DNA of 23,407 nt, from positions 1 through 23,407 of the IMG/VR virus record IMGVR_UViG_3300033146_001930. The stretch is one strand, 5' to 3'. A program made the position numbers and the translations under genes. Position 1 is the stretch's first letter. The number at the start of each line of letters is the position of its first letter. The stretch comes from a virus. Of this stretch, positions 555 through 22,460 are shown in pieces. The notes below the pieces were generated by a model. The model ran no database searches. It saw only the letters and a list, made by a program, of their open reading frames with translations, and was not told the origin of the DNA.

Positions 555-2618
555 ATGGCAGGAACTCAATCAAAATATATTACATTACAACAAAATATAT
601 TATTAGAATATTTTTATGATGAATCAAATTTAAAAAAAGAAGATTATCATATAATTAATAATTTAAATAATGGAGAAAAAGGATATTGTTCAAAATTAGG
701 ATTAAATTCAATAGAAAAATCTGTATTTCCAATTGATACTTTAGTAAAAAAATATGCAATTATTGATAGTTCTAAATATAATTATTTAAAAATTGGAAGT
801 TTCCAAACAACTTATACTCATTTTGATAAGGTGCGATTACATTTACCAACAACATATTCATTTATTGATAATGATTATATTGGTTTATATTTAAAAATTT
901 ATGCTTTTGATAAATTAAATAAAAAGACTGTAAATTTAGCTTCAATAATATATGATGATACTTTACCTGGATCAGATAAAGATATGATTTATAATGAAGA
1001 ATTTTTTTATAATCAACAACAATTTGGGAAATATTTAACTTTTGATATTCCATCATTATATGAAATTTCAAGACAAAGAACAAATATAATATCAGTAGAT
1101 TTACCATTAGATAATTCTATTAATATCAATCTATCTGAGTATGGTTTAAATTCAGAATCACCAATCTTTTTTGATTTTAGTTGGGTTATTTCAAAACAAA
1201 ATGTTTTAGGTAATGAATATTATTATTTATCAGATATTAATACTAAATCAATATCAAATAAACCTGAATACCAGACTCTTGGAGTACAAGTTCAAGAAAG
1301 TGAGAATGGAGATTATTTTGAAATATTTGGAACATATAACCAAAGTAATGAATTAATTGATGATTGGGTTGATGAAATGGTTTCGTCAGGAAGAAAAATT
1401 AAAATTGAATATGATGTATCTTTATTTGAAGAAAATATATTAACTAATAAACAATCATTTTTAGTTACTGAATTATTTTCTAAAAAAATATTATATAGAC
1501 CAATTGTTACGTTTTCAAATACTGTTGCTTTGATTGATGTTGAAATGAAAGTTATAGATTTATATGATAATTCACAGATTCTTAGAAAAGCTTCAATAGG
1601 ATTAAAAGAAAATATTTTTAAATATGGTAGAAAATTAACAAAAATAAATATAGATAATGCTTGGAAACCAAAAATTTATAATCAAAAAGTTTTATCAATA
1701 GGTGGAGATATAAAATCTCAAAATATACCAGATATTACATTAACTAAAGTAAATTTTCCTGTAATTGTTGATAGAATAAAAATTTTAACTAAAACATCAC
1801 CATCAAATAAAACTGATTATAAAGCAATGGGTTTAGCTGAAATAATTATAAATCCATTTGGAAATATTCTAAAATTTGATATTGCTTCTAGTGTTGAAGA
1901 TGAGGTTGTGACTCCATATAATTTAGTAAAGATAACAGAAAATTCAACGATAACTTTATCATTTAAAGATGAAACTAATTTTTTAGAAAAAAATATTTGG
2001 CAACAAACAGATAAAAATAATTTAGAATTAGGTACAATTTATTATAAAATTGAAGAAACAGATATATCTATATTAAAAAATATTTATAAAAATAATAAAA
2101 ATTTTTATATAACAATTAAAGGAGATAATACAAATGATAGAACATTATTATATTCTGGTAAATTTGTTTTCTTTGATGATTTAACATTTTTAGAAAATTC
2201 AAATAGTGAAATTGACGAAATAAATGGATTAAGTGATTTAGGATTATCTAAAACAGAAATAGATGCATTATTAAATAATACAATTTCAAATAATCTTTCT
2301 GATTCCGCATCTAATAAAAATTTATTCGTTTTTTTACATCATGATGCTGATACAGCAAGTTTTGAATCATATTTATCATCTATAAATGCAGATATTCATT
2401 TTAAACAAGCAGGTGGTAATGATAATTGTTTAACATATATGTATTTTATTTTAAATTTAAAAAATAATATAATTTTAGATATAAAATTAAGACATGAAGT
2501 ATCGGAAGTTAAAGAAATGGAATTTTGTTTAGGTAAAGGAAAACCATCAAATTCTATAATAAATATAGATGAATTAAATTCAAGTATTACTGCATTTAAT
2601 TGTAATTTAAAAAAATAA
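555..2618 (+). CDS. Unidentified large beta-rich protein, probably virion structural
   Basis: A protein of 687 residues with no signal peptide, membrane segment or recognisable enzyme motif. It is dominated by alternating hydrophobic/polar stretches rich in Tyr, Phe, Ile and Asn, suggesting beta-sandwich domains, with an Asp/Asn/Ser-rich linker near residues 550-595 and another globular C-terminal part. It is followed after only 10 nt by a tail-tube-fold gene, so the two are likely co-transcribed and co-functional, which points to a tail or baseplate component. The length is close to that of a T4 tail sheath (659 residues), but I do not see the conserved C-terminal sheath pattern and do not call it one. 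It is transcribed divergently from the ankyrin gene. The ATG at 555 begins MAGTQSKY. Structural role is inferred from the neighbour only. Confidence 0.6.
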   Translation: MAGTQSKYITLQQNILLEYFYDESNLKKEDYHIINNLNNGEKGYCSKLGLNSIEKSVFPIDTLVKKYAIIDSSKYNYLKIGSFQTTYTHFDKVRLHLPTTYSFIDNDYIGLYLKIYAFDKLNKKTVNLASIIYDDTLPGSDKDMIYNEEFFYNQQQFGKYLTFDIPSLYEISRQRTNIISVDLPLDNSININLSEYGLNSESPIFFDFSWVISKQNVLGNEYYYLSDINTKSISNKPEYQTLGVQVQESENGDYFEIFGTYNQSNELIDDWVDEMVSSGRKIKIEYDVSLFEENILTNKQSFLVTELFSKKILYRPIVTFSNTVALIDVEMKVIDLYDNSQILRKASIGLKENIFKYGRKLTKINIDNAWKPKIYNQKVLSIGGDIKSQNIPDITLTKVNFPVIVDRIKILTKTSPSNKTDYKAMGLAEIIINPFGNILKFDIASSVEDEVVTPYNLVKITENSTITLSFKDETNFLEKNIWQQTDKNNLELGTIYYKIEETDISILKNIYKNNKNFYITIKGDNTNDRTLLYSGKFVFFDDLTFLENSNSEIDEINGLSDLGLSKTEIDALLNNTISNNLSDSASNKNLFVFLHHDADTASFESYLSSINADIHFKQAGGNDNCLTYMYFILNLKNNIILDIKLRHEVSEVKEMEFCLGKGKPSNSIINIDELNSSITAFNCNLKK

Positions 2619-2628
2619 TTAAAAAATT

Positions 2629-3267
2629 ATGAGATTAAATTCTACAAATAATAAATTTATTTTTAATTTTCCTGTTGATTTTGTTGAACCTTGGTTATCT
2701 AAAGAATTACAGAATGTTATGGATAAAAATTTTATTCCATATGAAACAGTTCTTGAATATATTAATTCAACTATAAAAGAAATTGTTTTCCCATCAATGT
2801 CTTTTGATAATGTTGAACAGACTATAAAACGTGGTAAAATTGTTTCATATAAACCAGCAAAAAATATACATGATGCATTTACAAATGAAATAGATATAAC
2901 TTTAAAATCTGTTGATTCAAATTTAAATTATTTTATTTTAGTTCAAATTTTAACAGAGTATTATTTAAATACAACTAAAGATTATGATTCAGATTTTAGT
3001 ATAGATATATTAGATCATCATGGTGATAAGATTTATTCAATATTATTTAAAGAAGTTTTATTAAAATCTATTGGTGAAATAAGAATGGGATATCAAATGT
3101 TTGATTTGTCTGAAAAAACATTTTCTATAACATTTAGATATAATTGGATAAAAACTTACTATGAACTTGATGATGATGATATTAAAACAAATAAATCAAT
3201 TTATGATATACCTATTGATTTTCATCCTGGAAAACTTGATAAATTAGATAATGGTGGTGAATATTAA
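2629..3267 (+). CDS. Tail-tube-fold protein (T4 gp19/gp54-like)
   Basis: A protein of 212 residues. The order of elements fits the tail-tube family of contractile-tail phages: an N-terminal FNFPVDFVEPW segment, FPSMSFDNVEQ leading into a Lys/Gly turn (IKRGKIVSYKP), a strand pattern FTNEIDITLKSVDSN, a helix (NYFILVQILTEYY), FSIDILDHHGDKIYSILF, then KSIGEIRMGYQMFDLSEKT and a closing strand FSITFRYNWIKTYY. In gp19-like proteins these strands build the ring that stacks into the tube. The protein is somewhat longer than T4 gp19 (163 residues), so a tube-initiator or baseplate protein such as gp54 or gp48 is equally possible. It lies 10 nt after the preceding putative structural gene. The family call is by pattern recognition, not by search. 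Confidence 0.55.
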   Translation: MRLNSTNNKFIFNFPVDFVEPWLSKELQNVMDKNFIPYETVLEYINSTIKEIVFPSMSFDNVEQTIKRGKIVSYKPAKNIHDAFTNEIDITLKSVDSNLNYFILVQILTEYYLNTTKDYDSDFSIDILDHHGDKIYSILFKEVLLKSIGEIRMGYQMFDLSEKTFSITFRYNWIKTYYELDDDDIKTNKSIYDIPIDFHPGKLDKLDNGGEY

Positions 3268-5066: not shown

Positions 5067-5099
5067 AAAGGGTACAATGATTGTACCCTTTCTTTTTTT
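5067..5099 (+). terminator. Intrinsic terminator after the S1 gene
   Basis: An 11-bp perfect stem (5067-5077 with 5081-5091) containing GGGTAC/GTACCC, a three-base TGA loop and a seven-T tract. It begins 10 nt after the S1 stop. An ATG inside the hairpin (5077) is in frame with the next gene but makes an implausible start. Confidence 0.9.
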
Positions 5100-5112
5100 A
5101 TATATAATTATA

Positions 5113-6384
5113 ATGAAAAAATTAACAAATGAAATATTTATAGAAAAAGCAAAAAAAATTCATAATAATAAATATGATTATTCTTTAGTTGATTATAAAA
5201 ATAATGATATTAAAATAAAAATAATTTGTCCAAATCATGGTGTTTTTGAACAAAAACCAAAAAAACATTTAAGAGGTCAAGGTTGCTTTGAATGTAATGG
5301 AAACAAGAAAAAAACAAATGAAGAATTTATTGATGAAGCTAATAAAATACACATTAATAAATATAATTATTCTTTAATTGAATATAATAACAATAAAACT
5401 AAAATAAAAATTATTTGTTCAGAACATGGTATATTTGAACAAGCACCTATAAATCATCTTAACGGTAATGGCTGTCCAAAATGTGTAGGAAAAAATAAAA
5501 CAAATAATGATTTTATAAAAAAAGTGAAAAAATTTCATGGAGATAAATATGATTATTCTTTAGTTGATTATAAAAATGCTAAAACAAAAGTAAAAATTAT
5601 TTGTCCTATTCATGGAGTTTTTGAACAAAGACCATATTCTCATATGTATAATGGGTGTCCAAAATGTGCAAATAATATTAAATATACTACTGAAGATTTT
5701 ATAAAAAAAGCCAAAAAAATACATAATAATAAATATGACTATTCTTTGATAAATTATGAAAATAATCATACTAAAGTAAAAATCATTTGTTTTGAACATG
5801 GTGTTTTTAAACAAATAGCAAAAAATCATTTATCTGGTAATGGTTGTCCAAAATGTGCAAATAATATTAAATATACTACTGAAGATTTTATTCAGAAAGC
5901 AAAAAAAATTCATGATGATAAATATGATTATTCTTTAGTTAAGTATAATAATTCTGAAACTAAAGTAAAAATCATTTGTCCTGAACATGGTGTATTTGAA
6001 CAAATCGCATATTTACATTTAAAAGGTTATGGATGTAAAAATTGTGCAACTAAAAATATCAGATTAAAAACATTGGAAAGAATAAAAAATAACTTAAAAA
6101 ATGGTTATCAAATAATACCTAATTTCAATCCAAAAGCATGTGAAATCTTTGATAAAATTTCAGAGAAGAAAAATATAAAAATTCAACATGCAATGAACGG
6201 TGGAGAATATTATATCAAAAAACTTGGATACTGGGTTGATGGTTATGATAAAGAAAATAATGTTGTCTATGAATTTGATGAAAAATATCATGACTCAGAA
6301 ATACAGAAAGAAAAAGATCTTGTCAGAGAACAAGAAATAATAAATTTATTAAAATGTAAATTTATTAGAATAAAAGAAAAATAA
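5113..6384 (+). CDS. Zinc-ribbon-repeat protein with C-terminal nuclease-like domain (putative homing endonuclease)
   Basis: A protein of 424 residues from the ATG at 5113; an upstream in-frame ATG at 5077 lies inside the terminator and is rejected. Five repeats of about 63 residues fill positions 4-315. Each has F(I)xKAKKIHNNKYDYS, then KVKIICPEHGVFEQ, an H-L pair and GCPKC, giving a C-H-H-C-x-x-C set that probably binds zinc. The C-terminal 100 residues contain LGYWVDGYDKENNVVYEFDE, which has the D-(x)n-E-x-D/E layout of PD-(D/E)XK or Vsr-like nucleases found in phage homing enzymes. I infer a mobile DNA endonuclease with modular DNA-binding repeats. It sits between the S1 gene and phoH, 4 nt before phoH, as an insertion would. 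A TATATA sequence at 5101-5106 precedes the start. Confidence 0.65.
   Translation: MKKLTNEIFIEKAKKIHNNKYDYSLVDYKNNDIKIKIICPNHGVFEQKPKKHLRGQGCFECNGNKKKTNEEFIDEANKIHINKYNYSLIEYNNNKTKIKIICSEHGIFEQAPINHLNGNGCPKCVGKNKTNNDFIKKVKKFHGDKYDYSLVDYKNAKTKVKIICPIHGVFEQRPYSHMYNGCPKCANNIKYTTEDFIKKAKKIHNNKYDYSLINYENNHTKVKIICFEHGVFKQIAKNHLSGNGCPKCANNIKYTTEDFIQKAKKIHDDKYDYSLVKYNNSETKVKIICPEHGVFEQIAYLHLKGYGCKNCATKNIRLKTLERIKNNLKNGYQIIPNFNPKACEIFDKISEKKNIKIQHAMNGGEYYIKKLGYWVDGYDKENNVVYEFDEKYHDSEIQKEKDLVREQEIINLLKCKFIRIKEK
5656..5891 (+). repeat. Recent 189-nt internal duplication
   Basis: The same 47-base stretch occurs at 5656-5702 and 5845-5891, exactly 189 nt (63 codons) apart, within repeats 3-5 of the zinc-ribbon gene. 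The other repeats differ much more at DNA level, so this unit was copied recently and the repeat number is probably variable. Confidence 0.85.
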
Positions 6385-9134: not shown

Positions 9135-12100
9135 TTATTCTAAATAATCAAAATTCCAAAGATTTGGTAAATAATCCATATGACCAACACTATTCATTAT
9201 AACAATAAAAATATTAGCAACCATTTTAGGAGAACAACAAACAATATTTAATATTGTTGGTATCCATTTAGTAACACCTTCTAAATCTATAATATTTTTC
9301 AATTGATTATCTTTAAAAGTTTCATTTTTTGTTTCTAGATTTTTAATATCTATATTTAATTTATCTATTTTTTCTTTTAATGATGAAATTAATAAATTAA
9401 TATCAGATAAAATGATTTTACTATTTAAATTTATTAATTGATTTTCTAAATCTTTCTTTTTTAAAGCAGCATCATTAAGTGCAGCTCTTGATAAAGACCC
9501 ACTACAAGCAATATTATCTATATTATCTATTTCAGATTTTAGTTTTATTATTAAACTTGTTTTATCATTATCAATAATTGTTGCTTTTTTATTTTCTGCT
9601 ATTTTTAATGTTTCTTTATATTTCTTTAAATTTAGTTTTGAATTTATTAATTTTTTTTCATATGGATTTTTTTCATTTTTTATATCATCTGTTAAATCTC
9701 TTAATATTTTAATAATTAATAAATCAATATTTTTTCTCCACTCACATATATCACCATTAATAATATCATTTTTATTTTTTAATTCTAATTGTTTATTTTT
9801 ATCTTTTAATAAATCATTATTTAAATCATCTATCTTGTTATTTAAATCTATTAAATCATTATTCAAATCAACACCATCAAAAGATTTCGAATCTTCTTCT
9901 AATAAATTTTTTAAATTATTTATAGCATTACAATTTTTTTGTAATTCATTTTCAATATGTTTCAATGTATTTATAGATAAATCTGAGTTAGAAATCATTT
10001 TTTTCATCTTAGTATTATTATCTTCGAAAATTTTTATTTGTAATTCAATTTTTTGATTATTATCACTAACAAGCATATGTATTTTATTAACTAAAATATT
10101 TCTTTCTATTTTTAATTTTTGTATATTTAAAATTTTAGTATTAATTGAATTATTTAAATTGTTTTCTTCACTTTTCCATGATTTTATTTTATTTTTTAAT
10201 GTGGTCATAAATATTGAAAATCCTGGTATAAAAACATCTATTAAAGTTAAACCTTCGGTATTCATAAATAAAAAATCTGTCATACCTTCTAATGATGGTA
10301 ATTTCATAATCATATCTATTAATTCAAAAAATTTTTCAATTATGCCTTTTGTCCAAGCTGGAATTTTAGTTGGATTTAATGGTATACCAATAACTTGTTT
10401 AATTAAACCCATTAATTTTTTAATAATTCCCATTATTAATTGTAAAGGCATCATTATAATAGTTTTTATAATTTCAATCATTGTCATTTGCCAAGTCAAT
10501 ATCGGATTAATTTCTATAAATGGTATTAATTCATTTAATAATTCTTTCCAATTTGTTTTTGAAAAATCAAAACCTTTTTTAATAAGAACATCAATATTTT
10601 TATTATAATTATCACTATAAAATTCTAAACCACTATTTTTTAAACTAACAAATTTTTCTAAATCACCAAAAATCAATTTTTTATTTAGTTTATAGACTTC
10701 ATTTTTAATATTTTTTTTATTTTCGTTTAATTGTTTGATTTTATCACTATAATTAAATCTAATAATTTTAAGATTTTCTTTTTCTAATTGATATTTTTTT
10801 AATTCATCATCTAAATCTAAAATTATATTACATATTTCATCATCATTATCAATCTTTAATTTTTCTTTATAAATATTTAATTTATTATATACTTTTCTTA
10901 TTTTTTCATTTATAAAAAATAATGGATCCTCATTCAGTCTAGTATATTTTCTTATTTCCGCATCAATTGAATCTAATTTTTCTTTTCTATTTTCTAAATA
11001 TAATGTTTTATCTTTTATAACCGAAACTGGAACAGATATTATTTTTAATTTAATTAAACTTTCAATTTTTTTCATCCATTCATCTTCATTTGTTGAAAAA
11101 TCTATACCTAAATCATTTAATATTGTTATTTTTTCACGTAAATCTGTACGTTTAAAATCTAAACCTAAACTTTTAATAGATAATGCTTTATTGTATTTCT
11201 TTTTCCAATCATCACCATAAAAATCTATACCAAAACCATGTAAATTATCCAATTCTACTTTCCATTGTTCAATTTTAATTTGTTCTTCTCTATTATTAAA
11301 ATATGTTTTTATATTAATAGTTTTTAATCCAAAATTCATATTTAAATTAATTAATGATTGTAATTTTTCTTGCCAATCTGAATCATTTAAATTAATACCA
11401 AATCCAATTAAATTTTCAATAACTGTTTCAAAATTACTATTATTTAATCTTATATCCAGTTCGCTCAATTTATTAATCATATTAACATAAGACGTTTTAA
11501 AAAAACTAAATCCCCATTGATTAAGATGTTCTAATTTTGAAAACATTTGAGAAGGATATGTTGGATTATCTAATGAATCTTTAATAATATTAAATGAAAA
11601 ACCAAAATCAATAAATTTATTAATTTTATTGAAATTTGAATCATTTGAATAATGCCAACCTAAAGAAATTAAAGTTTCAGAAATATATTTTGTTTCAAAT
11701 TTAGTTAAATCTAATTGTGAACTGAATTTATTTATAAATTCATTATAATTTTCTTGTTGAAAATTAAATCCTAAATTTTGTAAAACTGCAAATTGTACAA
11801 CTGGTTTTGTTGATTGAATAACATCATTCTGATTTAGTGTATTTATTGTTGTATCTAATATCACAGTTTCATCAATATTTAAATCAAATCTATTATATAA
11901 TAAATCAAATTTTTCTTTAAAATTTGGGTCTTTGATATTTAATCCTAATTTATCAAAATTACCATAAATTCCAAGTAAAATTGCATATGTTATTTTTGTT
12001 TTATCTGGTGTTGGTTCCTTAACTAATGTTAAAGAGTCACCTTCAGAATTAGTTAATCCAGCTAAAATATTTTCAAAATCATTATTCACATTATTCCAAT

Positions 12101-14960
12101 TTTGATCAGTATTTTGACCACCAATATTTTCATTTACTGTAATATCATTATTATCAAGCACACCATCACCATTACTATCTATTTTCCACCCTTTATTTAT
12201 ATGAAATTCTTTCAATAATTCTAATTTCTCTCTATATAAATTTGAACCATCAATGAAACGCTTTGATGTAGAATTTTCAATAGTGTATTCATTTTCATAT
12301 GGTTTTATATCTTTTAAATCTGGTATATCCAAAATAATATCATATTTAGAATATTGATTTAATATTGATTTGAAATGACTTAATGTTGCAGATTTTAATA
12401 TGAAATTAACTATAGTTCGAGTGTTTGCACTTATTTTAGTATAAAAATATTCATCTGTTGCACTACCATTATCAACTTCAATATTATTCTCTTTAATAAT
12501 ATAATTACAATTTCCTGTTGTTATTTTAATATCAATTTTAACACCATATGGTACTATTGTCTCAAAAGAAAAATTTGTTGTAGATGTTTGTGTATCATGT
12601 AATATATTATTAAAATATATTTCAAATGATAAAGTTCCTGTTGTTCCAGAAAAATGTTCAATTATTGTTTCAAATGTTGTTGATAATTCTTCTTCATATG
12701 TAACATAAGTTGGTCCATAATTTGTTATATAAATATATTCATTATCATTTATTGTATTTGGATAGTTACTTTTAAAACTTGCAAAATCTTGTTCTGTTTT
12801 AAAATAAAATTGATTGAAAAAAATATTATTAATACTTTTAAATTTATCAAATATTTTTAATATAGCATCAATATTATCTGGTATACTCGTATCATTTTTT
12901 ATTTCATTTTCAATATCAAAATATCCATTTTCATTTGTACCACCCCATCGTAAACTAATTTTATATGTTTTTTCTAAAATCATATTTAAATATGGATTAT
13001 TTAGATTAATATTTCTTTTTAATGCATTATTAAATGCAGTTGAATCATTTAAATCAATATATTTTAATAAATATATTAATCTATCAATAGAATTTGGATT
13101 ATTAAAATTAAAAGAAATTTGTTGTAATCTTGAGATAATTGTTAAATCTGTTAAATCTAAATTAGATTCTTTTATTATTTTTAATATATCAAAAATTTTT
13201 GGATTGTTTATATTTAACCCCATATCAAATAATAAAACAATAATTGTTGAATCTAAAGAAACATATTTTTTTAAATTAGATAATTTTGTATAGTGTTTCT
13301 TATCATTAAAATTAAATCCAATATTATATAGAAATCGTAATAATTTATTATTATTTAAACTAATTCCAAGTTTTCGTATATTTTCTAATTTTGATAAATA
13401 TTTATCATTTGAAAAATCATGTCCTAATTTTTGTAATAAATCTAAATTAGTATTATCAAAAACATCAACACCAATTTCATGCATTCTTGATAATTTGATA
13501 TCAAGATTTTCATTTTCAATATTCTGTAAATATGCTATTAAAATTGCTCGTTTTTTATAATCTATATTTGTTTTAAATTCTTTCTTATTTAATAATTCTT
13601 TCTTATCTTTTAAAATTTCTAATTTTTTTGTTTCAACATTTTTATTAATTTTATTAATTTTTAATTTTTCTAAATTATATTTTGTTTCTAAATCTAATAA
13701 ACACTTTTTTTCTTTTTCTAATTCATCACATAATGTATCAATAATATTTTGAGAACAACCAAAATCATGACAAGATGTTTCTTTAAGTTCAATATTTTTT
13801 AATTTGATTTTACAGTTATTCAATGGTATTTCATATATGTTAATATTGTTTAAACGATTTTGTATAGTTTTAATATCTATATCTATTTTTTCTCTTAGTT
13901 CTTTTTCTTTTTTCTTTGATTCTTCTAAATCTTCTTTTATTAATACATCTATTTCATCTATAATAGTTTCCATCCAGTTTAATGGTACTTTTTCATTATT
14001 ATTTAAATTCAAAGCAGTATTTTTAGAAAAATATCCATATGGATCAATTTCCGGTATACATAATTTAAATGGTAAAAACGGAACAAAATGTCCAATATCT
14101 AAACAAAATTTTGGAATAGGTATATTTGAATCAAATAATGGACCTAACATAGTTATCATCATCCATTTAGAAGGATTAGAAAAAAGTAATTTTAATTCTT
14201 GTAAAATTTTAACAATACCTGGTATTGCATTTCCTAATAATTCACCTAATTGAAATCCAACTAATAAATCAATAGTATTTTTAAAAAAGAAAAATTGTTT
14301 AGCCATATTACCAATTGCTTTAATTAAAATATTAATAAATATATCTAATAACCCTGCTAAACCTCCATATTTTGAATTTGTATAATAATCAATATTTTCA
14401 TCAGGTATTTTATCATTAAAAAAATCTTTAACAACTAATCTAATAAGTTCTTTTTTATCAATTTTAACATAAATACCTAAATTTTCATCAATCCAAATTT
14501 TTTCAAGATCTTTATCTTGAGTAGTATTATCATTAATATTTTTTAATCTTTCTTTTTCTCGTTCATCTGAAATTTTCTGATTAATCTTTTTAAGATTTTC
14601 TTGTTCTTTAAGTATTAAATTTTTTATATCATCAAAATTAGATAAATTTAATTCTTTTTTCTTTGAATTATATTCTTCTTGTTTTTCTTTTAAGTTTCTT
14701 TCTAATTCAATTAATTTATCACATAAACTATTTAGTTCTTTTTTACCAAGTAATAATTCTTCAACAGAATATGATGCTGAATTTAATAATAATTTTTGTT
14801 GTAATGCACTTATTTGTGATTTTGTGATTTCTACATCTGTTTCTACTTTTGTGATTTTTTCTTTATAAGTAGGTAATATTTTTCCTTCAAGAATATTTTG
14901 ATAATATTCTATTTCTTTAATAATAGATTTTTTTTCTATTTCTAAACTTTTTAAACTCAT
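9135..14960 (-). CDS. Giant (1941-residue) coiled-coil and LG-repeat protein, probably tail or baseplate structural
   Basis: Domains by residue: coiled coil 1-150; hydrophobic region 200-300 (VGFQLGELLGNAIPGIVKIL and following); coiled coil 335-465; helical repeats 470-665 with recurring LGxxF/L-N units (KLGHDFSND, NIGFNFNDK, DMGLNINNP); beta-sandwich-like insert about 745-855; an EF-hand/dockerin-like loop DSNGDGVLDNND at 928-939; a second repeat block 995-1310 (NLGFNFQQ, GFGINLNDSDW, GFGIDFYGDDW, SLGLDFKR, DLGIDFST); coiled coil 1320-1430; two more repeats 1440-1475; a second hydrophobic region 1480-1585; long coiled coils 1595-1885; and a Cys-containing hydrophobic C-terminus. The alternation of coiled coils and paired hydrophobic regions suggests a duplicated architecture. 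Length and coiled coils would suit a tape measure or a large baseplate or fibre-attachment protein; no family is recognised. It lies 15 nt after the HAD gene, so likely in the terL operon. Confidence 0.65.
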   Translation of the reverse strand: MSLKSLEIEKKSIIKEIEYYQNILEGKILPTYKEKITKVETDVEITKSQISALQQKLLLNSASYSVEELLLGKKELNSLCDKLIELERNLKEKQEEYNSKKKELNLSNFDDIKNLILKEQENLKKINQKISDEREKERLKNINDNTTQDKDLEKIWIDENLGIYVKIDKKELIRLVVKDFFNDKIPDENIDYYTNSKYGGLAGLLDIFINILIKAIGNMAKQFFFFKNTIDLLVGFQLGELLGNAIPGIVKILQELKLLFSNPSKWMMITMLGPLFDSNIPIPKFCLDIGHFVPFLPFKLCIPEIDPYGYFSKNTALNLNNNEKVPLNWMETIIDEIDVLIKEDLEESKKKEKELREKIDIDIKTIQNRLNNINIYEIPLNNCKIKLKNIELKETSCHDFGCSQNIIDTLCDELEKEKKCLLDLETKYNLEKLKINKINKNVETKKLEILKDKKELLNKKEFKTNIDYKKRAILIAYLQNIENENLDIKLSRMHEIGVDVFDNTNLDLLQKLGHDFSNDKYLSKLENIRKLGISLNNNKLLRFLYNIGFNFNDKKHYTKLSNLKKYVSLDSTIIVLLFDMGLNINNPKIFDILKIIKESNLDLTDLTIISRLQQISFNFNNPNSIDRLIYLLKYIDLNDSTAFNNALKRNINLNNPYLNMILEKTYKISLRWGGTNENGYFDIENEIKNDTSIPDNIDAILKIFDKFKSINNIFFNQFYFKTEQDFASFKSNYPNTINDNEYIYITNYGPTYVTYEEELSTTFETIIEHFSGTTGTLSFEIYFNNILHDTQTSTTNFSFETIVPYGVKIDIKITTGNCNYIIKENNIEVDNGSATDEYFYTKISANTRTIVNFILKSATLSHFKSILNQYSKYDIILDIPDLKDIKPYENEYTIENSTSKRFIDGSNLYREKLELLKEFHINKGWKIDSNGDGVLDNNDITVNENIGGQNTDQNWNNVNNDFENILAGLTNSEGDSLTLVKEPTPDKTKITYAILLGIYGNFDKLGLNIKDPNFKEKFDLLYNRFDLNIDETVILDTTINTLNQNDVIQSTKPVVQFAVLQNLGFNFQQENYNEFINKFSSQLDLTKFETKYISETLISLGWHYSNDSNFNKINKFIDFGFSFNIIKDSLDNPTYPSQMFSKLEHLNQWGFSFFKTSYVNMINKLSELDIRLNNSNFETVIENLIGFGINLNDSDWQEKLQSLINLNMNFGLKTINIKTYFNNREEQIKIEQWKVELDNLHGFGIDFYGDDWKKKYNKALSIKSLGLDFKRTDLREKITILNDLGIDFSTNEDEWMKKIESLIKLKIISVPVSVIKDKTLYLENRKEKLDSIDAEIRKYTRLNEDPLFFINEKIRKVYNKLNIYKEKLKIDNDDEICNIILDLDDELKKYQLEKENLKIIRFNYSDKIKQLNENKKNIKNEVYKLNKKLIFGDLEKFVSLKNSGLEFYSDNYNKNIDVLIKKGFDFSKTNWKELLNELIPFIEINPILTWQMTMIEIIKTIIMMPLQLIMGIIKKLMGLIKQVIGIPLNPTKIPAWTKGIIEKFFELIDMIMKLPSLEGMTDFLFMNTEGLTLIDVFIPGFSIFMTTLKNKIKSWKSEENNLNNSINTKILNIQKLKIERNILVNKIHMLVSDNNQKIELQIKIFEDNNTKMKKMISNSDLSINTLKHIENELQKNCNAINNLKNLLEEDSKSFDGVDLNNDLIDLNNKIDDLNNDLLKDKNKQLELKNKNDIINGDICEWRKNIDLLIIKILRDLTDDIKNEKNPYEKKLINSKLNLKKYKETLKIAENKKATIIDNDKTSLIIKLKSEIDNIDNIACSGSLSRAALNDAALKKKDLENQLINLNSKIILSDINLLISSLKEKIDKLNIDIKNLETKNETFKDNQLKNIIDLEGVTKWIPTILNIVCCSPKMVANIFIVIMNSVGHMDYLPNLWNFDYLE

Positions 14961-15847: not shown

Positions 15848-16924
15848 TTATCTTTTCCATGGACTACCACTTATTTTTGGTATATTTGGCCTAAATCTTT
15901 TAGTTTTTCCAAAATGAGAATCCATTGGAGATTGGTTATTGTAAATTTGTTTTCTTGCCATTGTTGTTCCTTTATAATCAACATTATCATCACTTTTTTT
16001 ACCAACCAAGTATTTATCTATTAAATTCTTTGTACTTGAATCTAAACTAGAATATAAATCATCTACCATGTTTTTATACTGAACATGTGTAAATACTGAT
16101 GATAAATCTACTAATGTCATTACTGTATCATCATGACCGGTTGAACAGGCATATGTGAAATTACCTCCAGGTGTTATTTTTTTCGTAAATGTTGTTATCT
16201 CATTAATATTTGTTGAGTTATGAATATTAATTAATTGTTTTTTTACTGCCATTTGTAATGATTTAACTAATAATTTTTTACTTGCATCATTTTCTCCTCC
16301 TGTAATTTTCATCCCTATTTTAAATTGTTTGTCATCTTTTCTATGTTTATATCGTAAAAACATACCATTTGAAAAATTATTTTGATCATCAAATACATGA
16401 ATCAATTCAGATAAAAATTTAGATCCATATGTGTTATATTCTAAAACAGATTTACATTTTTCATTATTAAATATATCAAAAAATAGAACATAAAAAATTT
16501 CTGCTACTTCATCAATACTCCAATTATTACTTCTAAACATCCCAATTTGTTCTAATTTAAAAAATTCATATACATTATTTAAATTTTCATGTGTTTTCTC
16601 AATCAATTCTTTTTTCTTTGGCATTAATCTAAATATATTTATTATAGAATAATCTTGTGCTAATCCTTCACCTAAATCAACACTAACAATAATATGATAA
16701 TCTTTTACTTTTGTGATATCAAAAATATCTGGTCTACCACTTAACCATTTTAAATTTGTATATGGTAAATTAAGTTTAGAATCTAATTCTGGTATTTGAA
16801 TATATTTAAAATCTTGTGATTCTGTTTTAAATTTTTCCATTTGTTCTGAACTAAATAATGTTTTATCACCAGTAATAAAATGTAAATCATATTCTTGTTT
16901 GAACATATCGTCACCACCTATCAA
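15848..16924 (-). CDS. Large terminase, nuclease-domain part (frameshifted from the ATPase part)
   Basis: The C-terminal portion of terL. It begins with IGGDDMFKQEYDLHF, the end of the ATPase region in gp17-like terminases. The RNase H-like nuclease follows, with catalytic acids in IVSVDLGEGLAQDYS (first Asp), SVLEYNTYG (Glu) and STGHDDTVM (last Asp). This nuclease cuts the concatemer to finish packaging. The frame is open from 16939 but has no good start of its own: the first ATG (16906) would remove conserved residues, and a TTG at 16924 coincides with the stop of the preceding frame. One missing base within about 16925-16941 explains the break. It should be read as one protein with the two upstream pieces. 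Confidence 0.85.
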   Translation of the reverse strand: MIGGDDMFKQEYDLHFITGDKTLFSSEQMEKFKTESQDFKYIQIPELDSKLNLPYTNLKWLSGRPDIFDITKVKDYHIIVSVDLGEGLAQDYSIINIFRLMPKKKELIEKTHENLNNVYEFFKLEQIGMFRSNNWSIDEVAEIFYVLFFDIFNNEKCKSVLEYNTYGSKFLSELIHVFDDQNNFSNGMFLRYKHRKDDKQFKIGMKITGGENDASKKLLVKSLQMAVKKQLINIHNSTNINEITTFTKKITPGGNFTYACSTGHDDTVMTLVDLSSVFTHVQYKNMVDDLYSSLDSSTKNLIDKYLVGKKSDDNVDYKGTTMARKQIYNNQSPMDSHFGKTKRFRPNIPKISGSPWKR

Positions 16925-17583
16925 TTTAGTTTCTTTATTTTACAAATTTCAGGTAATGGTATTTCTGCTCCATTAATATTTAATCTTAATCCTCGAATAC
17001 CAGCAATATATGTTTTTTCATCATCTATATCCCATTTAGTCATTATCATTTCTTTACCATTAATCTCTTGTTCATATACATTTATCCCAAGATTCTTTAA
17101 ATAATTTATTATAAATTCTCTATCAATACCATATTCTTTTAATCTATATGCTAATGGATAAATATTTACATCTCTACGACCATCTACTTGATACCAATAT
17201 ACACGCATTGCTTCATACATATTTTTTTCTGGATCTTCTTCTTCTTTTTCTGCACCAATTAATAAATCATGAAATAAATTAAAACCATCTGGTGTTGATG
17301 TGATTATAATTTTAGAATTATTTACAGATGAAACTGTTGGAACAACAGCACCATAATATGCTTTAACTATATTGTCTGGCACTTTTGCAAATTCATCCAA
17401 ATATAAGAAATCAATAGTAAATCCAATTGATGGTTCTTTTGTTCTATTTTCTGTTTGAATTCTACATCCATTTTCAAATGTTAAACTTCGTTCATTCCAA
17501 TTATTAATTCCTGTCTTTAAAAAAAATGGTACTAATCTATAAATTCCTTTTATTTTTGTAATAATTTCAACTACAGTTTTTCC
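16921..17583 (-). CDS. Large terminase, central ATPase part (frameshifted at both ends)
   Basis: The open frame continues the ATPase domain: TVVEIITKIKGIYRLVPFFL, NNWNERSLTFENGCRI, then the Walker B segment FLYLDEFAKVP and the coupling motif region IIITSTPDGFNLFHDLL. These occur in the order of T4 gp17. About 80 further residues (VDGRRDVNIYPLAYRLKEYG onwards) extend the linker before the nuclease and make this terminase longer than gp17 (610 residues); the rebuilt exteins total roughly 720-735 residues. The frame joins the upstream piece if the A5 run at 17577-17581 (T5 on plus) has one more base, and joins the nuclease piece by another single base near 16930. No start codon of its own is plausible. 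Confidence 0.85.
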   Translation of the reverse strand, partial: GKTVVEIITKIKGIYRLVPFFLKTGINNWNERSLTFENGCRIQTENRTKEPSIGFTIDFLYLDEFAKVPDNIVKAYYGAVVPTVSSVNNSKIIITSTPDGFNLFHDLLIGAEKEEEDPEKNMYEAMRVYWYQVDGRRDVNIYPLAYRLKEYGIDREFIINYLKNLGINVYEQEINGKEMIMTKWDIDDEKTYIAGIRGLRLNINGAEIPLPEICKIKKLN

Positions 17584-18095
17584 TTATTCGCAACAATCAT
17601 AACTGACTTATCATTGTGGAACAGAATATAATGTAAGATTACTATTGCAGCACTGATCGTGTTGTGACTCAGTATATTAGATGTATAGTAACTTGGTTCT
17701 GGACCATCAATAGTTAAGTCAAACATTGATAATTTACCTCTTAATTTCTTTACATGTTTTACTTTTGATAAACCAGTTGTTGTTATTACTTCATCATCAG
17801 TATTCAAATCTACGACTATTTTTGGTGTGTGATCTTTACAATAAACTATATGTGTATCCGCACATTCTATTTTATTTCCATTTTCAAGCTCTAACTCATA
17901 TCTTTGTAATGGTATTGTTCTAACTATTTCTGAAACAGGTGTATTACCATAATCTGTTTTCACAAATTTCTTTATTGAAATTATATCAATTATTTTCTTT
18001 AATGAGTTTTTTTCATCTTTATTTATATTTCTAAATTCATACATCTCAATAAGTTGAATTAAAAATATAATTATTTCTTTAATATGTTTTTTCAT
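17571..18095 (-). CDS. Split-intein C half fused to the start of the terminase C-extein
   Basis: Residues 1-145 are intein and 146-173 are terminase. Block B is KIECADTHIVYCKD with His82. The end is PSYYTSNILSHN, followed by Thr146 as the +1 nucleophile and TISAAIVILHYILFH, the helix after Walker A. VANKEK at 168-173 then joins the central ATPase frame after a one-base shift; the TAG at 17571 is an effect of that shift. The ATG at 18095 overlaps the 3' end of the endonuclease gene by 17 nt, so translation is probably coupled to it. Confidence 0.85.
   Translation of the reverse strand: MKKHIKEIIIFLIQLIEMYEFRNINKDEKNSLKKIIDIISIKKFVKTDYGNTPVSEIVRTIPLQRYELELENGNKIECADTHIVYCKDHTPKIVVDLNTDDEVITTTGLSKVKHVKKLRGKLSMFDLTIDGPEPSYYTSNILSHNTISAAIVILHYILFHNDKSVMIVANKEKL
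17661..18095 (-). mobile_element. C-terminal fragment of a trans-splicing intein in TerL
   Basis: 145 residues with the splicing blocks B, F and G, ending in His-Asn, with Thr at +1. No endonuclease domain is inside. The fragment includes block B, so it is unusually long for an IntC. That is the hallmark of atypically split inteins such as the AceL-TerL intein (IntN 25, IntC about 104 residues). The N-terminal 45 residues are hydrophobic/charged helices that may serve association with IntN. Confidence 0.85.
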
Positions 18096-19116
18096 TATCT
18101 ATGATCTTATTTTTTATGAAAACTTTTATTTTTTTATTTTCATTTATCCATACATTTTCCCATATGTGATATAATCTTATATCTTTTTTTAATGCATTTC
18201 TACTTTTTGAAAAATGATAACCTGGTGTTTTTAATGAATGCCAATAATCACCATTAAATTCAAATCCTAATTTTATATCTGGTAAATAAATATCTATTTC
18301 TTTACCATCTAATATAGTTCTTTCAGATTGTATTATTGTTTTATCATAAATTGATTTTATATATATTAATAGATCGTTTTCTAATTTAGAAATTGATTTA
18401 TGTAATGGATTACATATTATACAAATTTCATCATTATTTAATAATCGACTATAAAATGTTTTTTCATTTATTATAAATGAATTATCACATTTATCACAAT
18501 AAATTTCTAAATTATTATATTTCTTATTTTCTATTTGATTTTTATTTATTATATTAGAATATTTATGATATAATGAAAATGTTGTTTTTGATATTTTATT
18601 AGATATTTCTATATTTTGTGCTGGTCTTTTAACACCATATTTCTCCAAATTAGTTTTTTCTTGTTTTTCTAATTGTTTTTTATTCTGTAAATGATATTCA
18701 GCACCATATTTTTCTAAACTTGTATTTCTTGATTTTTCCTTGATTTTTTCATTTTGAAAAATATTTTCAACATCATATTTTTCTAAATTAGTTTGTTTAA
18801 CTTTTTTTTGTATTTCTTTATTTTGCATTGGATGTTCTACACCATATTTTTCTAAATTAGTTTGTTTATTTTTTATATGTGAACATTTTTTACAAGTATA
18901 AATTTTGTATTTATTATAATTTTTCCAATAGTTCTGAATAGATATTATATTCTCTGCATTACATATATCACATATAGCTGTAATTTTATTTTTTGAATTT
19001 TTATTTAAATCATTTATATTCACTGAAATAATTTTATTTATTTCAGTATTATATTTTTTATAAAAACTCTTATTTCTACTTGTTATTTTTATTTTTATTT
19101 CTTTTTCTTTAATCAT
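18079..19116 (-). CDS. Free-standing Vsr/PD-(D/E)XK-like homing endonuclease within the split intein
   Basis: A protein of 345 residues: an N-terminal zinc finger (C49-x2-C52, C75-x2-C78), four 22-residue repeats of the TNLEKYGVEHPMQNKEIQKK type at 87-178, a second zinc finger (C207-x2-C210, C232-x2-C235) and a C-terminal nuclease (about 246-340). The nuclease has GKEIDIYLPDIKLGFEFNGD followed by YWHS, PGYHFSKSR and RLYHIWE, which fits the Vsr-like EDxHD homing endonuclease family described with fractured genes. It lies exactly where the intein is broken, 40 nt after the IntN stop and overlapping IntC by 17 nt. It probably cuts intein-free terL genes. A paralogue lies at 19768-20946. Confidence 0.8.
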   Translation of the reverse strand: MIKEKEIKIKITSRNKSFYKKYNTEINKIISVNINDLNKNSKNKITAICDICNAENIISIQNYWKNYNKYKIYTCKKCSHIKNKQTNLEKYGVEHPMQNKEIQKKVKQTNLEKYDVENIFQNEKIKEKSRNTSLEKYGAEYHLQNKKQLEKQEKTNLEKYGVKRPAQNIEISNKISKTTFSLYHKYSNIINKNQIENKKYNNLEIYCDKCDNSFIINEKTFYSRLLNNDEICIICNPLHKSISKLENDLLIYIKSIYDKTIIQSERTILDGKEIDIYLPDIKLGFEFNGDYWHSLKTPGYHFSKSRNALKKDIRLYHIWENVWINENKKIKVFIKNKIIDNEKTY

Positions 19117-19156
19117 TAATTAATTTAATTGTGATTTTTTGTAATTTTGATAAAAA

Positions 19157-19321
19157 TTATAATTTCATATACATTCGATATAAAAATAATTTAGATTTTT
19201 CTAAAAATGTTAATTTTCTTTCTTGTCTAACCATATCATAATATAACTCATAAAAAGGTATTTCATATATGTCTTTTGTTTCTTCATTAAGAGCTAATAT
19301 ATTAGTATTGAATGAATTGCA
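19157..19321 (-). mobile_element. N-terminal fragment of a trans-splicing intein in TerL
   Basis: 54 residues from Cys (codon 19321-19319) to the TAA. Block A is CNSFNTNILALNEETKDIYE, followed by IPFYELYYDMV and a charged helix ending LFLYRMYMKL. Block B is absent and is found in the C fragment, so the break is upstream of the usual split position. Confidence 0.85.
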
Positions 19322-19711
19322 TTTTCCAACTTGCCTACTTGCCATTAATATTGAAAATCTATGTTGTGTATAAAGATTAATAATATCTTTCTGATATTCT
19401 CTTAATTTCATTGGACCAATTGTTCCATCTTCACGCTTGATTTGACAGTATTGTTCTGCAAAGTAATGAACACTCATTTTACATTTCATATATTCATTAA
19501 CTTCTTTATCAGTTAAAGCAAATGGAATATTTGCTCTCCTAACACCTTTCATGTTATTGAACCACAATTTTTCATGATTTTTTAATTTCTCACCAAGATT
19601 TTCTCTTCGTTGAATATCATTTACTAATTTAGTATTTAGAACTCTTGTATCTTGTTTTTTTTTAGTCATATATTTTTTTTTTTTCATTTTTTTCAGTTTG
19701 ATGATAAACAT
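19157..19711 (-). CDS. Large terminase N-extein fused to split-intein N half
   Basis: A protein of 184 residues as drawn. Residues up to 130 are the N-terminal part of a T4 gp17-like packaging ATPase: NIPFALTDKEVNEYMKCKM, then PMKLREYQKDIINLY (adenine-binding/Q-motif area) and the Walker A ILMASRQVGK. The Lys is directly followed by the intein Cys131; the remaining 54 residues are IntN. After trans-splicing the motif would read SRQVGKT. The start could also be the inner ATG at 19669 (MTKKKQDTRVLN), since the first 14 residues are a Lys-rich run. A TATATATA stretch lies 10 nt upstream. TerL drives ATP-dependent packaging of DNA through the portal. Confidence 0.85.
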   Translation of the reverse strand: MFIIKLKKMKKKKYMTKKKQDTRVLNTKLVNDIQRRENLGEKLKNHEKLWFNNMKGVRRANIPFALTDKEVNEYMKCKMSVHYFAEQYCQIKREDGTIGPMKLREYQKDIINLYTQHRFSILMASRQVGKCNSFNTNILALNEETKDIYEIPFYELYYDMVRQERKLTFLEKSKLFLYRMYMKL

Positions 19712-19767: not shown

Positions 19768-20946
19768 TTACAAATTTAAAAAATTTAATATTTTATTTTT
19801 TATAAAACTTTTCACATTTTCACCATTTTCATCCCATTCTTCTTCCCATATATGATATAATCTTATACTTTTTTCTAATGCTTTTCTACTCTTTGAAAAA
19901 TGATATCCAGGTTTCTTGAATTTCTTTGAGTGCCAATATGTTCCATTAAATTCAAATGCTAATTTTAATTCAGGTAGATAAATATCTATCTCTTTACCTT
20001 CTAATATTTTTCTGTCTGATGTAATAATTTTTCCTTTATAAATATTTTCTATATGTTTTAATAATTCTACTTCTTTTTCTGATACTAACGATTGAATTGG
20101 ATTACATATAGTACATAATCTTGTATGATAAACTTTGGTTCTGTTGTAATATAATACATTATCTATTTGAAAATTATTGTCACATTTCTTACAATGAAAA
20201 TTATATTTAAAATCATCATCAATATATAATAATTCATAATCATTTGATAATTCTTGTTTTATTTTATTATAAATATTATCTTTTCTGATTTGTAATAATT
20301 TATTTTTAATTGTTTTATTTTGCATAGGATTTTCACTTTGATATTTTAATTTACATGTTTCTTTCATTTTTTCATTTCTTTCATTAATATCTTTTTGTGT
20401 TTTTTTAGACCAGGTTTCTTTTATTTTATTTCTAATATTAATATTTACTGAAGAATTTTCATAACCATACTTTTTTAAATTTGTGTTTTTAATTTTATTT
20501 TTAATTTCGTCTAAGAACATTGGATGTTCAACTCCATATTTTTCTTTAAATTTTTCCTTTTTCTTTTTTTTATATTTATTTGATTGAGTAAAGTGTTCTA
20601 CACCATATTTTTCTAAAGATGATTGTTTAACTTTTTCATTATATTTATCAGTTTGCATAAAGTATTTATAACCATATTTTTCTAAATTAGTTTTTTCTCT
20701 AGTAATATAATTACACTTAAAACAATAAAAAATTCCGTTTTTTTCATCTCTTTTATAATCTTTATAAATCATTGATTTCACTTTACCACAATTATCACAC
20801 TTTATATTTATTTTTATATGTGAACCAGAACTTAAATCATCAACATCAACAATTATTTTATCATTATTTATATCATAACCTTTTTTCTTATAATAATTTT
20901 TTACTCTATTTGTTATCTTTACTTCTACTTTCTCTGTTAATATCAT
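19768..20946 (-). CDS. Second Vsr/PD-(D/E)XK-like homing endonuclease, paralogue upstream of terL
   Basis: A protein of 392 residues from the ATG at 20946 (MILTEKVEVKITNR); this start aligns with the paralogue's MIKEKEIKIKITSR and has the TATATA-N5 box, so the earlier ATG at 20970 is not used here. The layout matches the paralogue: zinc finger (C50, C53, C75, C78), four to five LEKYG-type repeats (87-220, the last ones degenerate), zinc finger (C252, C255, C278, C281) and nuclease (about 290-392) with GKEIDIYLPELKLAFEFNGT, YWHS, PGYHFSKSRK and RLYHIWEEEW. It lies 57 nt upstream of the terL N exon. It is not inside an intein and behaves as an intergenic homing gene. Confidence 0.75.
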   Translation of the reverse strand: MILTEKVEVKITNRVKNYYKKKGYDINNDKIIVDVDDLSSGSHIKINIKCDNCGKVKSMIYKDYKRDEKNGIFYCFKCNYITREKTNLEKYGYKYFMQTDKYNEKVKQSSLEKYGVEHFTQSNKYKKKKKEKFKEKYGVEHPMFLDEIKNKIKNTNLKKYGYENSSVNINIRNKIKETWSKKTQKDINERNEKMKETCKLKYQSENPMQNKTIKNKLLQIRKDNIYNKIKQELSNDYELLYIDDDFKYNFHCKKCDNNFQIDNVLYYNRTKVYHTRLCTICNPIQSLVSEKEVELLKHIENIYKGKIITSDRKILEGKEIDIYLPELKLAFEFNGTYWHSKKFKKPGYHFSKSRKALEKSIRLYHIWEEEWDENGENVKSFIKNKILNFLNL

Positions 20947-20951
20947 ATTTC

Positions 20952-20957
20952 TATATA
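20952..20957 (-). promoter_or_regulatory. TATATA box 5 nt before the upstream endonuclease
   Basis: TATATA, five bases (GAAAT), then ATG at 20946. Divergent from the similar box at 20998-21003. Confidence 0.4.
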
Positions 20958-20997
20958 TAATTTTTATCAAAACTTATTTTTAGTTTTTAATAATTAA

Positions 20998-21008: not shown

Positions 21009-22460
21009 ATGGATAAATATACTGATAAATATATTAATAGTTTTGATATATTAAAACATGCAAGAATTGGCTTTGAATTCGAATTTTTCTCGGAAAAACC
21101 TTATCACAAATTACTTGAATTTTTAAATAGAGAACTAAATGTTAAAGTTTCTGGTTATAGAGTTTATCATTCATCATTTGATCCTGAAGAAACACATTGG
21201 AAGATTGAACCAGATTTGTCGTTGGGTTTTTCGGGTATTGAATTGATTTCAGGACCAATACCATATATAAATGCAAAAACATATTTATTAAAAGTTTTAA
21301 AGATATTACAAAGCCCTGGATTTTCAACAGATGACAAATGTTCAATTCACATAAATATAAGTTTTGATGAAGAAACAAGTCCAAGAATTTTAGAACAATT
21401 AAATAAATTGAAATTAATATTAAATATTGATGAGAATTTTATTTATAAATATTTTCCAGAAAGAGAGAATAATTTCTATGCAAAATCAGTGAAAAAAATT
21501 ATTCCATTTAAAAGTTTTCAATTTAGTTCAAACGCAGCAGAAATTTTAGTTAATAGTTTAGAATTACCTGATACTAAATATTATGGTATAAATATGTTAA
21601 ATGTTTTTGATGGTAGAGTAGAATATAGATATATTGGTGGTAATGACTATGAAGAAAAAACAGGTGAAATTTTAGATTTAATGGATTATTTTGTTCAATT
21701 AACTTGGGATTCAATTGATGTTTTAGATGAAGATGATATGGAAAAATTAACAGATTATTTACAAGAAAATATTAATCAATTTAAAAATTTCTCAAAAATT
21801 GATAATTTTTTAGCACAATTTCCATCAATAATGTTACAAATTGATATGAGTTCTGAAATGACTATATTAAAAAGTTATTATGAACAATTTTATGATCAGT
21901 TATATGATATAATTACAAACATATATAATTTGAGTAATTGTATTATTAATTATGATACTGAAGAACAAAAAATAGAAATTATAGATGCGACATTCAAAAC
22001 TATTTTTGATATTAAAAGAATTGTTTTAGTTGATTGTGTTATTGAAGGTGGTTCTTTTTCTAATTGTACATTTGTAAATTGTGAAATTAAAAATGCTCAT
22101 TTGAATAATTGTACATTAGGTATGACCGATGTTTATAAATCTAAAATTGAATCATCTAAAATAGAAAATGGATCAATATTACATGATTGTTATGTGTTCA
22201 ATTCATTACTTGATGGTGAAATGAAAGGTGGGATATTTAGATCTGGAAAATTAGGGGAATTCGCAAATTTAGATTCAGATGTAAAAATTGTTACAGCTAC
22301 AAATAATTATTTTGGTGGTGCACAAGATCAATCAATGGAAGATAAACTTAAAGCTATTGGTGGATTTAAAAATAAATCAAACATTAATAAGAAGAATATA
22401 TTTAAAGGTTATGGTACCAGTAAAGGTTATTCTTCTGATGTTGATGATTATACTTTTTAA
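21009..22460 (+). CDS. Putative amidoligase with C-terminal beta-helical region
   Basis: A protein of 483 residues. The N-terminal part shows the amidoligase (COOH-NH2 ligase, glutamine-synthetase-like) motifs: ARIGFEFEFF (18-27), THWKIEPDLSL with SGIELISGP (62-83), and the His motif KCSIHINISF (110-119). VEYRYIGGNDY near 204-214 fits the later Arg-containing motif. Such enzymes join carboxyl and amino groups using ATP. Residues 335-430 contain pentapeptide-like steps (GGSFSNCTFVNCEIKNAHLN, and SKIENGSILHDC) that predict a right-handed beta-helix. A Gly/Ser/Lys-rich tail follows. The substrate is unknown; peptide-tag or cell-wall linkage is possible. Beta-helix fusion may anchor it to a surface or virion, which is inference. 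Confidence 0.7.
   Translation: MDKYTDKYINSFDILKHARIGFEFEFFSEKPYHKLLEFLNRELNVKVSGYRVYHSSFDPEETHWKIEPDLSLGFSGIELISGPIPYINAKTYLLKVLKILQSPGFSTDDKCSIHINISFDEETSPRILEQLNKLKLILNIDENFIYKYFPERENNFYAKSVKKIIPFKSFQFSSNAAEILVNSLELPDTKYYGINMLNVFDGRVEYRYIGGNDYEEKTGEILDLMDYFVQLTWDSIDVLDEDDMEKLTDYLQENINQFKNFSKIDNFLAQFPSIMLQIDMSSEMTILKSYYEQFYDQLYDIITNIYNLSNCIINYDTEEQKIEIIDATFKTIFDIKRIVLVDCVIEGGSFSNCTFVNCEIKNAHLNNCTLGMTDVYKSKIESSKIENGSILHDCYVFNSLLDGEMKGGIFRSGKLGEFANLDSDVKIVTATNNYFGGAQDQSMEDKLKAIGGFKNKSNINKKNIFKGYGTSKGYSSDVDDYTF

Follow-up and report, generated by a model that had tools for sequence, protein, structure and literature searches.

In what Dassa et al. (2009) reportedly called fractured genes, a gene is broken inside an intein, the halves are encoded separately, and a free-standing homing endonuclease (HEN) of the EDxHD/Vsr-like kind lies in the gap. 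Large terminase (TerL) genes carry a second relevant group of inteins, AceL-TerL, GOS-TerL and Cat, the last of these being the AceL/GOS consensus. Neither fractured genes nor TerL inteins with an atypical split are new as kinds; the latter have an N-terminal half (IntN) of 25-37 aa and a C-terminal half (IntC) of about 104 aa (PMC11766414). Here we describe a TerL gene interrupted at Walker A in a stretch of viral DNA of 23,407 nucleotides (IMG/VR record IMGVR_UViG_3300033146_001930, positions 1 to 23,407), which as a whole is called the window below, together with its relatives in other phages. It is very likely a fractured terminase gene with a trans-spliced split intein which was made by HEN invasion, and whose halves were later free to scatter.

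A terminase gene broken inside its intein

A first-pass annotation of the window had put the Walker A Lys, directly followed by intein block A, in one gene, and the SHN-Thr splice end with the next ATPase helix in another, and both the open reading frames (ORFs) and the residues are as it described them. Three ORFs, all on the minus strand, lie at 19157-19711, 18079-19116 and 17571-18095, and the splice junctions read ASRQVGK/CNSF... and ...NILSHN/TISAA (the slash marks the splice point). All residues of a class 1 intein are present, namely Cys1, the block B His (ADTH), the SHN end and Thr+1, while A79, D80 and H82 are invariant across the intein family. The break does fall before block B, giving 54 + 145 residues, with the IntN longer through its added helix. 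The annotation had also placed a Vsr-like endonuclease with its own ATG between the halves, which is the fractured-gene arrangement; profile and motif agree, the ATG being located 40 nt past the IntN stop and the 3' end of the HEN 17 nt inside the IntC gene. The features are as follows.

19322-19711, minus strand: N-extein of TerL, 130 aa, with ASRQVGK (Walker A to its Lys) at its end, from ORF and residue check; its real start may be some later ATG
19160-19321, minus strand: IntN, 54 aa, block A (Cys1) and a C-terminal helix placed from the L100 model (see below); stop codon at 19157-19159
18079-19116, minus strand: gap HEN, 345 aa, with DUF7487 repeats followed at the C-terminus by an EDxHD (I-Bth0305I-like) domain
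17661-18095, minus strand: IntC, 145 aa, with a helix at its N-terminus, then block B (ADTH) and blocks F and G, the last residues being SHN
17571-17660, minus strand: start of the TerL C-extein (from Thr+1), up to the first frame break
16921-17559, minus strand: ATPase part of the TerL C-extein, frame-shifted and including Walker B (LYLDEFA); PF03237 match at 17188-17565
15848-16924, minus strand: rest of the C-terminal part of the TerL C-extein (nuclease domain position), past the second frame break
19768-20970, minus strand: second free-standing HEN of the same family as the gap HEN (DUF7487), directly upstream of the N-half

The window IntC alone matches Pfam Intein_splicing weakly (6.7e-5, below the cut-off), and the IntC family profile matches CatC 6dsl (2.6e-10), gp41-1 (2.9e-10), VidaL (3.7e-10) and NrdJ-1 (1.1e-4). 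In three relatives, L100, L096 and L125, the intein is contiguous, a single piece of 192-194 aa. An AlphaFold model of the L100 intein (25 alignment rows; pLDDT 93.2, pTM 0.86) was compared with the Protein Data Bank (PDB) by Foldseek, and its matches were the inteins VidaL (TMt 0.80), gp41-1 and Cat. The predicted structure of this contiguous relative thus has the HINT fold. Two helices, 32-46 and 50-64, follow its first strands, with the break at about residues 47-49, and in the split relatives the IntN end and the IntC start fall between these helices. We infer that the two helices form a hairpin, one helix of which would be kept by each half as a docking interface. As the break is at the same residue in dozens of related contigs, the split is not an artefact; a continuous intein-endonuclease frame, which the annotation had named as an observation that would overturn it, is excluded for the family.

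Two frame breaks in the C-part of TerL had been missed by the annotation: the window C-part does not continue in one frame but changes frame near 17575 and near 16930, each time at an A-rich run. Inspection by eye revealed no standard slippery site for programmed frameshifting at either break. In relatives the TerL C-half is a single unbroken ORF of 755-775 aa, free of both breaks. It was plausible to assume that TerL and its intein halves are in decay, and that TerL of the window is a pseudogene or has been replaced by a terminase encoded elsewhere in the genome, as apart from these breaks one clade has lost the penultimate His of the intein and LR756500 its terminal Asn, and some genomes bear TerL-like paralogues. 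However, the ratio of non-synonymous to synonymous divergence (dN/dS) is about 0.17 for IntN and about 0.13 for IntC, which means purifying selection on both halves, and the C-extein is under purifying selection as well. The C-halves of relatives are unbroken, the paralogues have no Walker A Lys and not enough length to include the nuclease part, and PF03237 detected no second complete TerL in the whole records searched. Since dN/dS of the window C-extein beyond both breaks is 0.17-0.24, these breaks point to a sequencing error or to a recent event or recent decay, and long decay is argued against. Taken as an explanation of the whole locus, decay is quite improbable.

The altered residues and the paralogues may be described here. 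The penultimate His is replaced by Leu in the LR756501-like sequences L014, L085, L091, L093, L095, L097-L099, L105, L109 and L111, while the intein of LR756500 (L036) ends in Ser-Gln in place of His-Asn and retains the +1 Thr. Paralogues of the TerL ATPase whose Walker A is degenerate (RQMGI or RQLGL, the Lys being lost) are located at L022:655-1827, L030:1459-2358, L036:4419-5231 and L039:2154-2636; they are 160-390 aa long, occur in genomes with a split TerL, and adjoin a TerL half in LR756500 and vB_VmeM-32. Elsewhere in the window there is a DUF723/treble-clef endonuclease gene adjoining a PhoH gene (5077-6384), a 1941-aa protein without a Pfam match (9135-14960) and an amidoligase-like protein with pentapeptide repeats (21009-22460).

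Adjacent and scattered halves among relatives

Viral contigs searched with the window IntC ORF yielded nine loci aligned from residue 1 and 45-90% identical. A profile scan then gave 424 relatives, the best 80 of which were analysed. When 88 IntC sequences were clustered at 95%, 61 non-redundant clusters were obtained (L107 was reassigned afterwards). In 40 of the 61, genes stand between two halves that are otherwise adjacent; the halves are almost gapless in four, scattered in seven and contiguous in five; the remaining five, mostly at contig ends, were left unassigned. The almost gapless clusters, with 34-115 nt between halves, are L063, L112, L114 and the Delftia phage PhiW-14 (45 nt), and the contiguous ones are L096, L100, L125 and two from Ackermannviridae, which were added to the survey by hand. 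The N-half of L010 at first appeared broken, but this was rejected, as its contig appears to read TGA as Trp and the N-half is intact under code 4. In this contig, which is shared with L107, code 4 is needed to keep the N-half, the gap gene and the C-half open.

Among named phages, the nearest DNA is found in LR756504, LR756501, LR745206 and LR756502, records of 634-735 kb. Three of these (LR756504, LR745206 and LR756502) have a contiguous TerL without an intein, i.e. an empty site. In Al-Shayeb et al. 2020 the Mahaphage clade comprises the four largest genomes, with predicted Bacteroidetes hosts, and inteins go unmentioned in the main text of that paper (PMC7162821). In LR756501, a 735 kb phage, the C-half starts at 611493 and the N-half occupies 623871-624416, 12 kb away. 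Halves are also scattered in G011 (9 kb), G013 (12 kb) and G008 (about 11 kb; this contig holds only the end of the N-half), and in G005 they lie about 22 kb apart on opposite strands. Two isolated phages extend this further. The N-half of the Vibrio phage vB_VmeM-32 (79947-80624, minus strand) is separated from gp16 by one gene and is 77 kb away from the C-half (1102-3216, plus strand), and in the Salicola phage SCTP-2 172 kb lie between the N-half (429356-429748, minus strand) and the C-half (from 256428, plus strand). The TerL C-half ORF of SCTP-2 (L035:1750-2643) ends within an apparent second intein near Walker B, and TerL of this phage may be in three or more pieces.

On one hand, HENs in phage terminase genes often reside in group I introns, for instance in terL of ICP1 and of Jug phages (PMC10448857, PMC12363816), and the gap might thus be a self-splicing RNA intron with its HEN, whose removal from the RNA would leave the intein contiguous and able to splice in cis. 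On the other hand, neither the window gap nor eight related loci gave an Rfam match, the positions of the IntN stop and the IntC start are constant across the family, and an intron would not fit into gaps of 34-48 nt. Moreover, scattered halves, which are separated by 9-172 kb and in some cases encoded on opposite strands, cannot be joined by a cis reading frame or an ordinary intron. An RNA intron is the least credible of the explanations considered, its chance being very slight. Trans-splicing of the TerL halves, which we infer from sequence, is much strengthened as a reading by these distant homologues.

Homing endonucleases and a conversion footprint

The window gap HEN carries DUF7487 (1.7e-28), and its C-terminal domain matches I-Bth0305I (PDB 3r3p) with E 0.002 using profile A2. 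Profile A8 matched 3r3p at 5e-5, but it included two radical-SAM proteins (L085 and L093); when the HEN gap assignments were rechecked with a clean profile devoid of these contaminants, none of them changed. At L085:4004-5005, beside the IntC half, a radical-SAM gene carries as a fusion the C-terminal tail of a DUF7487-type HEN, apparently a HEN remnant. The motif EIDIYLPD..FEFNGDYWH is present in the gap HEN, and its phage homologues are annotated as homing endonucleases, one of them as 'homing endonuclease EDxHD'. Judged by profile and motif, the gap HEN belongs to the EDxHD/Vsr-like family. A structure model of the HEN from a single sequence was discarded (pLDDT 33).

Among 43 representatives with a measurable gap, 25 hold a ROS/MUCR-finger (MUCR type) HEN or its remnant, eight a DUF7487 HEN, five both and five none. 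HENs are inverted in L073, L092 and L108, and also in G005, beside the IntC half. Remnants occur in L114, in L071 and beside the lone N-half of G005, where a deleted MUCR-type HEN lies directly downstream (53 and 20 bits). Just upstream of this N-half there is a GIY-YIG-like protein (L025:2315-2923). HEN-free gaps of L010 (3076-4005), L079 and L080 hold HExxH (metallopeptidase-like) proteins.

A near-identical pair of loci suggests how such a split could arise. L089/L090, split and with a MUCR-type HEN, are 94% identical upstream and 96% identical downstream to the contiguous L100. Within about 65 nt before and about 75 nt after the L089 HEN, identity to L100 is 51-69% and identity to L096 is 91-94%, while L089 and L096 are about 74% identical overall. 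Informative sites are L096-like at 51 of 56 positions in this patch and at 20 of 421 outside it (p 4e-46). The HEN ATG of L089 overlaps the IntN stop (ATGA), and the IntC ATG comes after the HEN stop. The simplest reading is co-conversion, in which a contiguous L100-like intein received the HEN together with its flanks from a donor resembling L096. Because the patch is wholly inside the intein, the HEN would have homed into an intein-bearing allele; on these comparisons, the L089 HEN appears to parasitise the intein and not to move it. HEN invasion of a contiguous intein is thus evident from this pair, and the same may be assumed for the window. The HEN itself is a putative nuclease.

The window itself may be compared with L002. 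Their HENs differ, yet identity is highest at the intein: 76% in the outer N-extein, 93% in its inner 55 residues, 91% in IntN, 90% in IntC, and 78% then 70% in the C-extein. Synonymous divergence is 40/114 sites in the intein vs 63/119 in the following C-extein (Fisher p 0.008). This pattern would fit an exchange centred on the intein, and both whole-intein transfer and HEN homing are compatible with it.

One could also argue in the opposite direction, namely that split inteins are ancestral, that the contiguous L096, L100 and L125 resulted from HEN loss and fusion, and that halves scattered independently of HENs. Split forms far outnumber contiguous ones among the best 80 of the 424 relatives, and L096 is contiguous though the L089 patch is L096-like. 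However, as this patch is 91-94% identical to L096 against an overall value of about 74%, the HEN-bearing flanks are a recent arrival in L089; besides, HEN remnants are found at gaps and beside lone halves, and Ackermannviridae also have contiguous inteins at the same site. We regard this alternative as unlikely, albeit less so than the RNA intron or decay.

In the scenario that we favour, a HEN gene would have invaded the hairpin turn within a contiguous intein and brought with it the IntN stop and the IntC start. Two separate polypeptides would then be translated, one consisting of the TerL N-part followed by IntN, the other of IntC followed by the TerL C-part, and the halves would pair via the two helices of the former hairpin and rebuild a class 1 HINT domain. 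Splicing in trans (Cys1, C-terminal Asn, Thr+1) would join RQVGK to TISAA and complete the P-loop of the packaging ATPase. The HEN would be a parasite nested in the intein that may be replaced by another HEN family, inverted, eroded or lost while the split remains. Once trans-splicing works, the halves would no longer need to be adjacent, as in the several phages where they are far apart. The conserved split and splice residues, the turnover and decay of HENs and the dispersal of halves are apparent from comparison of the sequences, and the order of these states and the irreversibility of the split belong to the proposed scenario.

Several points weigh against this scenario. The survey counts are based on the 80 best of 424 relatives, and split forms had been used to build the query; the window, a fragment of 23 kb, carries two frame breaks in the C-part, and the modelled structure is that of the contiguous relative L100 and not of the window IntN/IntC pair. 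The direction of the L100/L089 conversion is based on three sequences, and splicing may be altered in the Leu-for-His clade and in LR756500, which ends in Gln.

As a broader hypothesis, with somewhat better than even prospects, many natural split inteins could stem from a one-way ratchet, in which a HEN parasitising the intein homes into a structural turn of HINT, leaves a small co-conversion patch within the intein and immediately produces a functional split. HEN loss would leave the split in place, and essential genes would become permanently bipartite and free to scatter. If true, the ratchet would explain why in some of the largest known phages the packaging-motor genes lie at two sites far from each other.

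Comparison with described systems

The origin of naturally split inteins has so far been argued mostly from isolated end states. Here a single gene offers a graded series (contiguous, HEN-split, HEN-swapped, HEN-decayed, gapless-split and dispersed) which includes a near-identical before/after pair with a conversion footprint. A literature search, with most subscription papers outside it and earlier reports therefore possible, retrieved no description of the Walker A family, of distant or opposite-strand TerL halves, or of a contiguous-to-split footprint. Trans-splicing of an essential motor is directly testable in the isolated phages Delftia PhiW-14, Vibrio vB_VmeM-32 and Salicola SCTP-2. TerL, a standard marker for phage trees, can occur as two unlinked genes in huge phages, and for protein engineering the family offers split inteins with an unusual hairpin break.

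The likeness to AceL-TerL proposed in the first-pass annotation is correct as to the style of the break and incorrect as to identity, since the window intein represents a separate Walker A lineage. Shared with AceL, GOS and Cat are the TerL location, the break before block B, and a short IntN with a long IntC; the window intein differs in its position at Walker A (GK/T), in the extra helix per half (54 + 145 aa) and in Thr+1. The window IntC alone gave no match to Cat. TerL of vB_VmeM-32 carries, besides its Walker A intein of the present family, a second, contiguous and Cat-like intein (E 1.5e-13) at Walker B (YVDE/C...SHN/CAF, L033:1726-2151). A common site and lineage with Cat thus seems improbable, as judged from this Cat-like intein and not from the native AceL/GOS sites.

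TerL inteins of Ackermannviridae (Klebsiella phage Magnus and Vibrio phage BX-1) share the insertion point (RQSGK/C...SHN/T) and a homologous IntC part, but they are encoded in one gene, without a HEN, and have another linker where the split forms break. I-Bth0305I, described in PDB 3r3p as a 'mobile intron protein', has a nuclease domain which matches the C-terminus of the gap HEN; however, it is intron-borne, whereas the gap HEN sits between intein halves and has Cys-pair and DUF7487-repeat parts upstream. The split PolB intein of phage MIJ3 (PMC6892783) likewise has a HEN between its halves and lies in a replication gene of a jumbo phage, but the gene is different, the HEN is of the HNH class, and dispersal or a homing footprint is unreported there.

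In arrangement there is a resemblance to fractured genes, as TerL of the window is broken inside its intein, with separate halves and a free-standing EDxHD/Vsr-like HEN between them. What sets the present family apart is that the broken gene is TerL of huge phages, that the break is at a hairpin turn and that two exchangeable HEN families occur in either orientation, together with a series of decay stages, a separation of halves by up to 172 kb and a before/after homing footprint.

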